Made by a program: the position numbers and the translations under genes. Positions 31,836-35,986 of a DNA stretch of 62,477 nt are shown here, piece by piece. The stretch lies in the NCBI GenBank assembly GCA_947627615.1, contig CANQWS010000017.1:1-62477 (forward strand), given 5' to 3'. The notes beneath the pieces were generated by a model. That model was not told where the DNA came from. It did no database searches and saw only the letters and a program-made list of their open reading frames with translations. Numbering within the stretch: the first letter of the stretch is position 1; each line of letters starts with the position of its first letter. This DNA comes from an uncultured Muribaculaceae bacterium. Its GTDB lineage: Bacteria > Bacteroidota > Bacteroidia > Bacteroidales > Muribaculaceae.

Positions 31836-31867
31836 TTTGCATATCTCGGAACAATTGACTATATTTG
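31836..31867 (+). promoter_or_regulatory. Promoter of the XRE regulator
   Basis: TTTG (31836-31839) and TATATTTG (31860-31867) are separated by exactly 20 nt, an ideal Bacteroidetes promoter. The ATG follows at 31889. Confidence 0.65.
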
Positions 31868-31888
31868 TATCATAATATTAGCAGTATT

Positions 31889-32188
31889 ATGGCTCAGGAT
31901 AGCAATAGTGACAATTTGTTGACACTATTGGAAGGCTTCACGCTGGACAATGCCGACGACATAGCCCGGGAGGTCGCGGAGAATTTCCGCCGGCGTCGGG
32001 TGGAGAAAAACATCACCCGGAAGCGAGTTGCCGAGCTGTCGGGCGTGCCGCTGTCAACCGTGGCTCGCTTCGAGCAGAAAGGGCTCATAGCGTTCGAATC
32101 GCTCATCAGGCTGGCTATGACTCTGGGCTATACGGCGGAAGTGTGCAACTCGGCATCCAGTTCATACCCACTTTTGCAACCGTCATGA
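31889..32188 (+). CDS. XRE-family helix-turn-helix regulator
   Basis: A 99-residue DNA-binding protein. The HTH is RRRVEKNITRKRVAELSGVPLSTVARFEQKG, in which VAELSG and PLSTVARFE form the two helices. The form is like HipB or other antitoxin-type regulators, but no toxin gene is next to it; the following transcription unit is the methionine operon. Whether it regulates that operon is unknown. Start ATG 31889 is chosen over a TTG at 31865 that overlaps the -7 box. Confidence 0.8.
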   Translation: MAQDSNSDNLLTLLEGFTLDNADDIAREVAENFRRRRVEKNITRKRVAELSGVPLSTVARFEQKGLIAFESLIRLAMTLGYTAEVCNSASSSYPLLQPS

Positions 32189-32253
32189 AATAGTTTCGGG
32201 GAAATTTAAGCCAAATTTCGGAGCGGGGATGATGGTATTTTAATATTTTTCAT

Positions 32254-32443
32254 TATTTTTGCAGCAAATATCACCCAGATGGATTTCACCGGCTCCAACA
32301 TAGCATTCCGTGACCACGTCATGACGGCAAACGACATGATGATGCAGATGTGCATGCGCCAGCCTTCAAGCCGGGGGTGATCAATTGCCTTGTAATTTCA
32401 TCAACTTTCAACCAGCCGGCTTCCATCAAAGAAACCGGTTTTT
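32254..32443 (+). promoter_or_regulatory. Methionine attenuator: promoter, leader and alternative hairpins
   Basis: TATTTTTG at 32254-32261 is the -7 box. Four complementary segments follow. Segment 1 is CCGGCT (32289-32294). Segment 2 is AAGCCGG (32368-32374), at the end of the leader ORF. Segment 3 is GCCGGCTT (32415-32422). Segment 4 is CCGGT (32435-32439), leading into TTTTT (32439-32443). 1:2 pairs over 6 bp, 2:3 over 7 bp (antiterminator), and 3:4 over 5 bp plus CTT/AAG (terminator). A ribosome stalled at the Met cluster would just leave segment 2 free for 2:3 pairing. Confidence 0.65.
32279..32380 (+). CDS. Met-rich leader peptide of the methionine operon
   Basis: A 33-codon ORF starting about 12 nt after the predicted transcript start. 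Seven of 33 codons are Met (positions 1, 15, 20, 21, 22, 24 and 26), with the cluster MMMQMCM just before the attenuator stem. The peptide ends at TGA 32378-32380, next to segment 2. This is the expected design of a translation-sensing leader for methionine supply. No Shine-Dalgarno site, as usual here. Confidence 0.65.
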   Translation: MDFTGSNIAFRDHVMTANDMMMQMCMRQPSSRG

Positions 32444-32457
32444 AACTTTTCTATATT

Positions 32458-33747
32458 ATGGATTTCAGCAAACTGCACTTCCAGACACGTCAGATTCATG
32501 CAGGCCTCAACGCCCACGAGCCCACAGGCTCCCGCGGAATGGCCATCTACCCCACAGCAGCCTACAGGTTCCAGTCATGCGACCACGCCGCGAATCTTTT
32601 CAACCTTTCCGAAGCCGGAAACATATACACCCGTCTGCAGAACCCCACCACCACGGCCTACGAGGAACGTGTGGCCGCGCTCTACGGCGGCGTAGGAGCC
32701 GTGGCCACATCCTCGGGCATGTCGGCCATTCTCGTGGCCGTGACATCTCTGGCCTCGGAGGGCGACAACATTGTGGCCGGCTCGTTTCTCTACGGCGGCA
32801 CCTACAACCTGTTCCGCCAGACCCTGTGCCGTCTCGGAATAGAAATCCGCATCTGCCGGACGGAGGATCCGGAAGAGTTCCGCTCCCTGATCGACGACCG
32901 CACAAGAGCCGTCTACGTGGAAAGCATGGGCAACCCCACATGTGCCGTGCTCGACATGGAAACACTGGCCGGAATAGCCCACGAAGCGGGTGTGCCGTTC
33001 ATCGTGGACAACACTTTCGGCGCCGGAGGCTATCTCTGCAACCCCTTTGACTGGGGCGCCGACATAATAGTGGACTCGGCCACGAAGTGGATCAACGGCC
33101 ACGGCACGGCCATGGGCGGCATCATCGTCGACAGCGGCCGCTTCGACTGGTCCAACGGCAAATTCCCCCAGATCGACGGACCGTCGGAAGGTTACCACGG
33201 ACTCAACTTACGCGAGGCGTTCGGCAATCAGGCGTTCATAGTGAAATGCCGCGTTGACGGGCTGAGAGACTTAGGCACATGCCCGTCGGCTTTCGATTCC
33301 TATCTGATGATGCTCGGTTTGGAGACCCTGTCGCTGCGCGTGCGGCACCAGGCCGAGGCGACCCGCCGGCTGGCCGAGGCCCTGCGCGACGACCCGAGGG
33401 TGAAGCGGGTGAGCTACGTGGGATTCGACGACAACCCCTACCACCGCCATGTGGAGAAATACTTCCGCCACGGAGGCTCATGCGTGTTCACTGTGGAGCT
33501 GAAAGGCTCGCTGGAGACAACCGTGAAATTCGTGGAGGCACTCGAACTCGCCGCCCACATGACCATGATAGGCGATTCCATCACGGTGGTGACGCATCCG
33601 GCATCGACGACCCACAAGCAGCTCTCGGAGGACGACATGGCCACGGCCGGCGTGACCCCCACACTGCTCCGCATATCCATGGGACTGGAGGACGTGGAAG
33701 ACATAATAGCTGACTTCCGTCAGGCCCTTGACAAAGCAAATATCTGA
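32458..33747 (+). CDS. metY: O-acetylhomoserine sulfhydrylase
   Basis: PLP enzyme that makes homocysteine from O-acetylhomoserine and sulfide, the direct sulfhydrylation route to methionine. The 429-residue product has the Cys/Met-metabolism fold. The PLP lysine is Lys210 in DSATKWINGHG, and the cofactor region VATSSGMSAILVAV is present. It is the first structural gene after the Met leader and is followed 5 nt later by metX. Confidence 0.94.
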   Translation: MDFSKLHFQTRQIHAGLNAHEPTGSRGMAIYPTAAYRFQSCDHAANLFNLSEAGNIYTRLQNPTTTAYEERVAALYGGVGAVATSSGMSAILVAVTSLASEGDNIVAGSFLYGGTYNLFRQTLCRLGIEIRICRTEDPEEFRSLIDDRTRAVYVESMGNPTCAVLDMETLAGIAHEAGVPFIVDNTFGAGGYLCNPFDWGADIIVDSATKWINGHGTAMGGIIVDSGRFDWSNGKFPQIDGPSEGYHGLNLREAFGNQAFIVKCRVDGLRDLGTCPSAFDSYLMMLGLETLSLRVRHQAEATRRLAEALRDDPRVKRVSYVGFDDNPYHRHVEKYFRHGGSCVFTVELKGSLETTVKFVEALELAAHMTMIGDSITVVTHPASTTHKQLSEDDMATAGVTPTLLRISMGLEDVEDIIADFRQALDKANI

Positions 33748-33752
33748 AAACG

Positions 33753-34778
33753 ATGCAGACCTACCGTCACGACACACCGCTCAGACTCGAGCTGGGCGGC
33801 GAGCTGCAGGGCCTTGAGATTGCCTATCATACATTCGGGCGCCTCAACCGGCGGCGCGACAATGTGGTGTGGGTGTGCCACGCCCTGACGGCCAACAGCG
33901 ATGTGGCCGACTGGTGGCCCCATACGGTGGAGGCCGGATGTTTTCTGGATCCGTCGCGCTGGTTTGTGGTGTGCGGAAACATCATCGGCTCGCACTACGG
34001 TTCCACGGGACCGCTGTCGGTGAACCCGGCGACCGGAGAACCGTACTACGGCGATTTCCCCAAGATAACCATCCGCGACATGGTCAACGCCCACAAGATT
34101 CTGGCCGAAGCTCTCGGCATAGGCCGCATCCACGCGCTCGTGGGCAGCTCCGTGGGCGGCTTTCAGGCCGTGGAGTGGGCCGTGGACGAACCGGAGCGTT
34201 TTGACCGGCTCATCCTGATAGCCACGGCCGCCAAGGCCTCGCCGTGGGCCATAGCCATCGACGAGACCCAACGCATGGCCATAGAGGCCGATTCAACCTA
34301 CGGCGAACCGCGCCCCGACGCCGGCATGGCCGGTCTGGCGGCGGCACGCGCCATAGGGCTGCTCACCTATCGCGGCGGCGAAGGCTACAACATCACGCAG
34401 CAGGAACTCCCTACGGGCGACCACGGCACAATCCTGCCGCGCGAAAGCCACCGCCCATGCTCCTACCAGCAGCATCAGGGCAAAAAACTGTGCGAACGCT
34501 ACAACGCCTATTCCTACATGACCATCCTCGACGCCTTCGACACCCACGATGCCGGACGCGGACGCGGCGGCCTCGAAAAAGCGCTTTCAGGCATAAAAGC
34601 CGGGACTATGACCATAGGCATAACCACCGACATGATTTTCCCGCCGGAATCCATGCGTCGGCTGTGCGGGATGATTCCCGGCGCCGTCTACCAGGAGATA
34701 GAATCGGATTTCGGGCATGACGGATTTCTCGTGGAGCATCAGAAACTCAATGACATACTTAACAAATTTCTCGTATGA
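33753..34778 (+). CDS. metX: Homoserine O-acetyltransferase
   Basis: Alpha/beta-hydrolase enzyme that acetylates homoserine with acetyl-CoA, supplying the MetY substrate. The nucleophile sits in LVGSSVGGFQAVEWA, and the Asp and His of the triad are in TTDMIFPPE and DFGHDGFLVEH. Length 341 is normal. MetX and MetA can both use either succinyl- or acetyl-CoA in different lineages; acetyl is favoured by the neighbouring metY. It overlaps hom by ATGA. Confidence 0.94.
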   Translation: MQTYRHDTPLRLELGGELQGLEIAYHTFGRLNRRRDNVVWVCHALTANSDVADWWPHTVEAGCFLDPSRWFVVCGNIIGSHYGSTGPLSVNPATGEPYYGDFPKITIRDMVNAHKILAEALGIGRIHALVGSSVGGFQAVEWAVDEPERFDRLILIATAAKASPWAIAIDETQRMAIEADSTYGEPRPDAGMAGLAAARAIGLLTYRGGEGYNITQQELPTGDHGTILPRESHRPCSYQQHQGKKLCERYNAYSYMTILDAFDTHDAGRGRGGLEKALSGIKAGTMTIGITTDMIFPPESMRRLCGMIPGAVYQEIESDFGHDGFLVEHQKLNDILNKFLV

Positions 34779-35986
34779 ACAGAATCAACATAGGCCTCTT
34801 CGGATTCGGCGTAGTGGGCCAGGGCATATATAAAGTAATAAACCGGGCCACCAACGCCCACGCGGTCATAAGCCGGATATGCGTCCGCGATGTCAACAAA
34901 CCGCGCGAGCTGGCGGTTGACCCTTCGCTGCTCACCGATGACGCGGACCGCATTCTGGACGACCGCAACATAAACCTGATTGTGGAGGTGGTGGACGATG
35001 CCGAAGCCTCCTACCGCATAGTCACCTCCGCCCTGCGGCGCGGCATACCGGTGGTCTCGGGCAACAAGGCTATGATAGCCCGCCATCTTCCCGAGCTGAT
35101 TGAACTGCAGCGCGAATATGACACAGCCCTGCTCTACGACGCCTCGTCATGCGGGTCAATCCCGGTCATCCGCAACCTCGAGGAATACTATGACAATGAC
35201 CTGCTTCTTGAGGTGAAGGGCATTCTCAACGGGTCGTCGAACTACATACTCTCGCGGGTGTTTGACCACGACGAGGACTATCAGTCGGCACTCCGGCGCG
35301 CCCAGCAGCTCGGATTCGCCGAGAGCGACCCTTCATTTGACATCGAGGGCTACGATTCGCTGTTCAAGCTGATAATCATCACTGTGCACGCGCTGGGTGT
35401 GTACGTGGAGCCGGAAAGGATATTCACCTACGGAATCACGGCGCTGTCGGATTTCGACATCCGTTACGCCCGCGAGAAACGGATGAAGATAAAACTCGTG
35501 GCTCAGGTGGTGAAAGTGTCCGACGACCAGTTCACCATGTTCGTGATGCCGGAGTTCGTCAGCCCGTCGAGATACATCTACAGTGTCGACGACGAGTACA
35601 ACGGCGTGGTAATACGCGGCGAATGCTACGACCGCCAGTTCATGTTCGGCAAAGGAGCCGGCAGCCTGCCCACGGCATCGTCTATTCTCAGCGACGTCAT
35701 GGCCCGGCGCCACGGCTACCGCTATGAATACAAGAAAATGGAATATGTGAACCGCCCGGACTACACCACCGACGTAACGCTCGAAATCTATCTGCGTTAC
35801 CCCGACAAGGAATTCCTTGACCGCATCCCGTTCATTAGCATCGGCGAGATGTTCCAGTCAGCCGAAGCCAATTATGTGAAAGGCACCATCAGGCTGAAGG
35901 ACCTTATAGACGTAAGGCCGCTGCTTGACAATCCGGAGGTGTTCGTGTGCAACGTGCCCCGGTTCTTCCTCGAACTGGACGACTGA
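34775..35986 (+). CDS. hom: Homoserine dehydrogenase
   Basis: NAD(P)-dependent enzyme reducing aspartate semialdehyde to homoserine, the shared precursor of methionine and threonine. The nucleotide-binding motif GLFGFGVVGQG is N-terminal, and the catalytic KGILNGSSNYILS and DIEGYDSLFK are intact. At 403 residues there is no fused aspartokinase and no obvious C-terminal ACT domain. ATGA overlap with metX couples it to the methionine operon. Confidence 0.94.
   Translation: MNRINIGLFGFGVVGQGIYKVINRATNAHAVISRICVRDVNKPRELAVDPSLLTDDADRILDDRNINLIVEVVDDAEASYRIVTSALRRGIPVVSGNKAMIARHLPELIELQREYDTALLYDASSCGSIPVIRNLEEYYDNDLLLEVKGILNGSSNYILSRVFDHDEDYQSALRRAQQLGFAESDPSFDIEGYDSLFKLIIITVHALGVYVEPERIFTYGITALSDFDIRYAREKRMKIKLVAQVVKVSDDQFTMFVMPEFVSPSRYIYSVDDEYNGVVIRGECYDRQFMFGKGAGSLPTASSILSDVMARRHGYRYEYKKMEYVNRPDYTTDVTLEIYLRYPDKEFLDRIPFISIGEMFQSAEANYVKGTIRLKDLIDVRPLLDNPEVFVCNVPRFFLELDD

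Follow-up and report, generated by a model that had tools for sequence, protein, structure and literature searches.

A methionine-rich leader ORF upstream of metY, metX and hom in gut Muribaculaceae: a predicted peptide-leader transcription attenuator

The stretch of DNA analysed here (the window) comprises 62,477 nt of contig CANQWS010000017.1 from an uncultured Muribaculaceae bacterium (assembly GCA_947627615.1). Its forward strand carries metY, a metX-like homoserine acyltransferase gene and hom in close succession and, upstream of them, a short ORF with the sequence elements listed in Table 1. A Met-rich ORF of 33 codons, seven of them for Met, had been reported at this place in a first-pass annotation, and it is confirmed here; its translation is MDFTGSNIAFRDHVMTANDMMMQMCMRQPSSRG, the C-terminal end before the stop codon being MMMQMCMRQPSSRG. 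Its Met codons are clustered: across the 62 kb, position 32336 is the one place with at least five in-frame ATG in eight codons, and one of 60 dinucleotide-shuffled versions of the full window had such a cluster. Segment 2, inside the ORF, is complementary to segment 3, which is in turn the 5' part of a terminator hairpin closed by segment 4; all of them sit, within one base, where the first reading of the sequence had placed them. Further upstream, positions 31865–32188 encode a small helix-turn-helix protein (HTH_3, with a HipB-like match far under the cut-off), and this ORF stops about 90 nt upstream of the leader ORF.

Table 1. Features of the metY leader region and of the downstream genes in the window
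Feature	Position	Strand	Remarks
–7 promoter box TATTTTTG	32254..32261	+	fits TAnnTTTG, presumed Bacteroidetes type
Leader ORF	32279..32380	+	33 codons plus TGA, 7 Met codons
Candidate segment 1 (CCGGCT)	32289..32294	+	named in the first-pass annotation; poorly supported as a conserved part
Putative Met sensing cluster MMMQMCM	32336..32356	+	last Met codon 32354–32356, 24 nt before stop
Segment 2 (AAGCCGG), antiterminator 5' arm	32368..32374	+	inside the ORF, just upstream of the stop; pairs with segment 3
Leader stop codon TGA	32378..32380	+	a ribosome here would cover segment 2
Intrinsic terminator	32415..32443	+	hairpin 32415–32439 plus T-run 32439–32443; stem –8.1 kcal/mol
Segment 3 (CCGGCTT)	32416..32422	+	common to antiterminator and terminator
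metY, O-acetylhomoserine aminocarboxypropyltransferase	32458..33747	+	TIGR01326 559 bits, cutoff 495
metX-like homoserine acyltransferase	33753..34778	+	best hit TIGR01392 335.9 bits, under cutoff 500
hom, homoserine dehydrogenase	34775..35986	+	NF004976 296 bits, cutoff 205; PF00742

Loci comparable to that of the window were collected by a search of genome contigs, in which the best 80 of 511 metY loci were kept. With the window included, and after removal from the row counts of L003 and L004, which duplicate L006 and L024, and of L005, a 45% paralogue, this gave 81 metY rows representing 79 different proteins: 36 with a Met leader and a terminator (class A, to which the window belongs), 12 with a class B leader (see below) and 33 with none, two of these last having less than 250 nt of upstream sequence. 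In a tree of MetY, all class A rows fall within one well-supported set (100/98) of 50 rows, the other 14 of which have no leader. The metY genes without a Met leader include those of L028, L036, L046, L047, L048, L058–L060, L063, L148, L150 and others, and at several no-leader loci metY apparently lies close behind another ORF, so that regulation would differ within the group.

The promoter expected before the leader is present in the window and appears to be of the Bacteroidetes type, since the box TATTTTTG fits TAnnTTTG, which we take to be the consensus of the –7 box in this phylum; the transcript is predicted to start at about 32267–32270. The same type of box was found in 31 of the 35 class A loci whose upstream sequence is long enough, a number to be compared with the 3.2 (sd 1.8) expected from shuffles. 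A strict sigma-70 promoter scan found no promoter for the leader, as is to be expected in a member of the Bacteroidetes.

A Met-rich ORF occupies the same place in all 36 class A loci, the window included, and its Met codons are held in a precise register with respect to the end of the ORF. Of the 36 loci, 33 have an ATG exactly 24 nt upstream of the stop codon (three lack it), 33 have one 30 nt upstream and 30 have one 42 nt upstream. Over the last 60 nt of the class A leaders the three frames contain 208, 4 and 2 ATG, a distribution that is partly by construction, as in-frame Met was a criterion in choosing the loci; the 24-nt register, unlike this frame count, is not built in by that choice. 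By contrast, what precedes the Met cluster in the leader differs among class A loci in length as well as in sequence (11 to 64 aa for the whole ORF when counted from the first possible start codon, both 11-aa cases being at contig edges), a pattern that speaks for a sensor that is translated rather than for a conserved aptamer. Besides the three class A leaders that lack the 24-nt register, the stop codon is lost in at least two further leaders of the wider set: in L110 and L105 the usual stop codon is missing and the ORF continues several codons beyond segment 2, and these two leaders may be damaged or differently tuned.

The composition of the leader end also bears on which amino acid would be sensed. 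Cys codons make up 8.9% of the last 16 codons, vs 1.2% of the upstream leader part and 1.65% of MetY proteins; at least one is present in the last 16 codons of 29 of the 36 class A leaders and at least two in 16 of them, and the window itself has MCM. It could therefore be asked whether the leader senses cysteine as well as methionine, the more so as the enzymes of the TIGR01326 MetY model are named for the use of O-acetylserine too. We regard such joint sensing as rather unlikely, because Met outnumbers Cys about fourfold and is the residue that holds a fixed register, because seven of the 36 class A leaders have no Cys at all and because TGC could be kept for the sake of the RNA sequence. 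The Cys codons among the last 16 class A codons (32330–32377 in the window) often adjoin Met codons, as in MCM and MCMC.

Both the Met cluster, with its fixed register to the stop codon (33/36 at 24 nt), and the complementarity between segments, on which the first-pass annotation had built its proposal, are kept in relatives, and antiterminator (2:3) and terminator (3:4) alike show compensatory changes. This was assessed in a MAFFT alignment (A1) of 31 of the 36 class A loci, which omits L015, L019, L045 and L053, where the stop or the register differs, and L038, a near copy of L031. In the 2:3 helix, 77.3% of the cells are paired vs 70.8% after shuffling, eight of the 11 pairs are changed on both sides (a number reached by 8 of 500 shuffles) and the covariation is 0.222 vs 0.134 (reached by 0 of 500 shuffles); when the partner is slid along the alignment, pairing is at most 50.9%. 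The 3:4 helix is 89.1% paired vs 74.8% in shuffles, with a covariation of 0.462 vs 0.210, and nine of the 11 pairs of the terminator hairpin are changed on both sides somewhere among the 31 loci. An alignment-free comparison points the same way: the 2:3 duplex formed within a locus has a mean of –16.9 vs –13.7 (sd 0.40) for segments of different loci (0 of 10,000 permutations, n = 36), and the 3:4 duplex a mean of –20.6 vs –13.1, the shuffled and cross-locus controls for both helices being such that they leave shared ancestry in. Relatives appear to keep the same switch, as judged from these pairings, in spite of the changed letters.

The position of the Met cluster relative to segment 2 was considered in silico in 32 of the 36 class A loci (without L015, L019, L045 and L053). 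Counted from the first base of the codon in the A site, the leading edge of the ribosome was set at +12 nt, the value assumed for E. coli. A ribosome that stalls at the last Met codon has its edge just short of segment 2, and a 2:3 helix of at least 5 bp is then possible in all 32 loci as long as segment 4 has not been synthesized. With the stall one, two or three codons further on, it is possible in 31, 14 and 0 loci, respectively, while the mean number of 2:3 pairs falls from 8.3 at the last Met codon to 6.7, 4.0 and 0.6. The last Met codon is thus within about one codon of the last workable stall position, and this would account for the constant distance to the stop codon. A ribosome placed at that stop codon lets 3:4 form in every one of the 32 loci. 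At equilibrium, with segment 4 present and the ribosome stalled, the minimum-energy fold retains 2:3 in only five of the 32 loci (in the window 3:4 is favoured over 2:3 by 1.4 kcal/mol), so that antitermination must be kinetic, that is, depend on the order of synthesis. Classical attenuators are likewise assumed to act by the order of synthesis.

The leader ORF, the Met cluster in fixed register, the covarying 2:3 and 3:4 helices and the association with the methionine pathway, all of them read directly from the sequence, point to what is very probably a ribosome-mediated peptide-leader transcription attenuator, predicted to read charged Met-tRNA and to control metY-metX-hom. When methionine is ample, the ribosome would reach the stop codon and cover segment 2, segment 3 would pair with segment 4 and transcription would end at about 32443. 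When methionine is scarce, the ribosome would stall in the MMMQMCM cluster with segment 2 just past its leading edge, and segment 2, being free, would pair with segment 3 and let the RNA polymerase read into metY.

The first-pass annotation had likened the element to the trp/his type of attenuator, with four segments. The Met leader, the antiterminator (2:3) and the terminator (3:4) of that design stand, while segment 1, the presumed protector of segment 2, is poorly supported as a conserved part, although its sequence is present in the window. In the window, the 1:2 pairing is unremarkable, being equalled by 13% of shuffled 5' regions, and among the 30 of 36 class A loci covered by this test it has a value of –12.1 within loci vs –11.1 across loci (10 of 5000), yet just four of the 30 loci beat shuffles at the 5% level. 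Folding without a ribosome, in 28 of the 36 loci (without L015, L019, L045, L053 and those lacking the promoter box), favours 2:3 in 21 loci and an upstream pairing of segment 2 in three; the window itself is undecided, with 2:3 at 0.51 and the upstream pairing at 0.02. With no clearly conserved segment 1 to compete for segment 2, an untranslated leader should also read through in most loci, and by this folding the switch looks default-ON, closed only by translation of the leader to its stop codon. Such an arrangement suits methionine, because methionine starvation should also slow initiation.

The distribution of the element was followed with a covariance model (R1) built from metY leaders only. 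At E ≤ 1e-150, metY is present in 33 of 297 evenly sampled genomes of the window's family, counting that of the window, and in 26 of these it is preceded by a Met leader (25 class A, one class B); the seven others have no Met leader by eye, one of them having only a short upstream stretch. In the same 297 genomes R1 gave 31 matches at E ≤ 2.2e-7, 30 of which precede genes of the Cys/Met pathway: metY in 26 cases (one cut by a contig end), metX-hom in three and a PLP enzyme of Cys/Met metabolism in one (L110). The three metX-hom operons have no metY in front, and their metX and hom are 64–69% and 76–79% identical, respectively, to those of the window, the hom of two of them being only partly in view; a further metX-hom case, L124, was matched at E 1.8e-5. 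As the matches lie before metX-hom operons too, the element seems to follow the methionine pathway, and not just the upstream DNA of one gene. The remaining one of the 31 matches, at 2.2e-7 (L115, same as L129), proved to be an ordinary terminator. With Met-rich defined as 4 Met in 9 residues, none of the nine weaker family matches examined (L125–L128 and L130–L134) shows a Met-rich ORF with a long ORF behind it. Across the order, R1 matched 13 of 393 genomes at E ≤ 5e-5; two belong to the window's family, and the 11 hits outside it (1.9e-6 to 4.7e-5) were set aside as ordinary terminators. MetY at E ≤ 1e-170 was found in two of these 393 genomes, both in the window's family.

It may be asked whether the switch is still functional in the window, where the stem of the terminator, the weakest among the class A loci, has an interruption; because of this interruption, a strict terminator scan called no terminator at the window leader. 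The leader could then be a relic, in which the terminator has decayed and regulation has been lost, with the relatives' leaders still regulating. We hold this to be quite improbable, given that the window keeps all registers, the 2:3 pairing (intact over 7 bp) and five T after the hairpin, and that its leader scores 69 bits in R1 (E 4e-15), the sole match under E 0.2 in the window genome.

RNA control of methionine genes is well known from the SAM-I (RF00162) and SAM-II (RF00521) riboswitches. Such control being common for methionine genes, and some partly conserved letters being found directly 3' of the leader stop codon, a ligand-binding riboswitch, for SAM or another ligand, with an expression platform overlapping a Met-rich ORF by chance, would be conceivable, but it is hardly credible in view of the in-frame Met register, the little room that the variable region upstream of the Met cluster leaves for a shared aptamer, and the Rfam searches. 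In the window and in 20 of the loci, these gave at gathering score only tRNA genes away from the leader, with no SAM-I or SAM-II match at the leader itself, and at relaxed E values only two eukaryotic snoRNA models, far under their cut-offs, in 32200–32480. The statement in the first-pass annotation that methionine genes in this phylum are usually linked to SAM riboswitches did not hold for the window's family, in which RF00162 was found in 0 of 119 genomes, vs 3 of 14 control genomes. SAM_alpha (SAM-II, RF00521) was likewise found in 0 of 119 family genomes, a search that says little, since none of its 14 controls was matched.

The attenuator reading has to be seen against the systems already known. 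The mechanisms usually considered for methionine control in bacteria are SAM riboswitches, Met T-boxes and repressors. With the classical attenuators of the trp, his, leu, phe and thr operons the window leader shares a short ORF rich in codons for the end product, an arm common to antiterminator and terminator, and an operon for the same amino acid; it differs from them in reading Met, in having the antiterminator arm within the last codons of the ORF, in the lack of a clearly conserved protector helix and in having no Rfam match. No terminator-type Met attenuator was found in the literature searched, the comparative survey of Lopatovskaya (2010) lying outside that coverage. The nearest case is metL of Streptomyces lividans, for which a Met-dependent leader peptide, in which Met and Cys alternate (CMCRRMC), has been proposed upstream of metNIQ; according to the accessible part of that report, it differs from the present leader in belonging to the Actinobacteria, in preceding an uptake operon and in having a leaderless transcript, and its authors describe no typical Rho-independent terminator (PMC8079986). 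For methionine operons of Actinobacteria, the accessible text of another study states that there are no conserved RNA structures (PMC1262725). In the phylum of the window, leader-peptide attenuation has been proposed upstream of amino-acid operons of Flavobacterium psychrophilum, that is, the same proposed mechanism, with the amino acids not named and methionine unmentioned in the part of the paper at hand (PMC9723704), and short ORFs in long 5' UTRs of Bacteroides thetaiotaomicron have been likened to leader peptides in the portion of the work consulted (PMC7366714). The Bacteroid-trp RNA (RF01692), described in the text available as a predicted cis-regulatory RNA of Bacteroidetes and associated by its name with an amino-acid pathway, is alike in these respects (PMC2864571); it has no match in the window genome at E ≤ 10.

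A gut bacterium, it appears, gauges its methionine supply by means of a ribosome that reads a Met-rich leader in front of its methionine genes. If this is true, a conserved attenuator reading Met-tRNA in a gut family would add an amino acid to the list of those sensed by peptide leaders, and methionine synthesis in these bacteria would be predicted to be switched by the methionine that surrounds them. It would also raise the question of how a translation-based sensor can work when its signal is the initiator amino acid, and the apparently missing protector helix suggests an answer.

Class B leaders, found upstream of metY in 12 loci (L041, L056, L057, L061, L072 and L074–L080), add a second type of Met leader. 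Ten of the loci come from MAGs named Alistipes, one from Rikenellaceae and one from Muribaculaceae. They have a Met-rich ORF ending in MRMCR and a 22-nt segment, ATGCGAATGTGCCGNTAGGCAC, that is exact in 11 of the 12 loci and carries one inserted base in L079. The stop codon begins in the loop of a 5-bp hairpin, with its last base in the stem, and a second hairpin follows downstream, in which six of seven pairs show double changes among 10 sequences (alignment A2, 10 of the 12 loci, without L078, a near copy of L076, and L079 with its inserted base). No intrinsic terminator with a U-run is evident in class B, and its control mechanism, as far as the sequences indicate, probably differs from that of class A. 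Taken with class B, the apparently missing protector helix of class A possibly marks a new variant of attenuation. We would tentatively go further and propose a default-ON class that does without a protector because methionine is also the initiator, in which both stalled elongation and failed initiation would lead to read-through and complete translation alone would close the switch, together with class B as a second, undescribed mode of reading a Met leader; this combined proposal is put forward with somewhat less than even confidence. The class B pattern occurs in 0 of 247 genomes of a broad sample of the order. Within the window's own family it is present in one genome, G286, and in the genus of G286 in one of 91 genomes, at the known metY locus.
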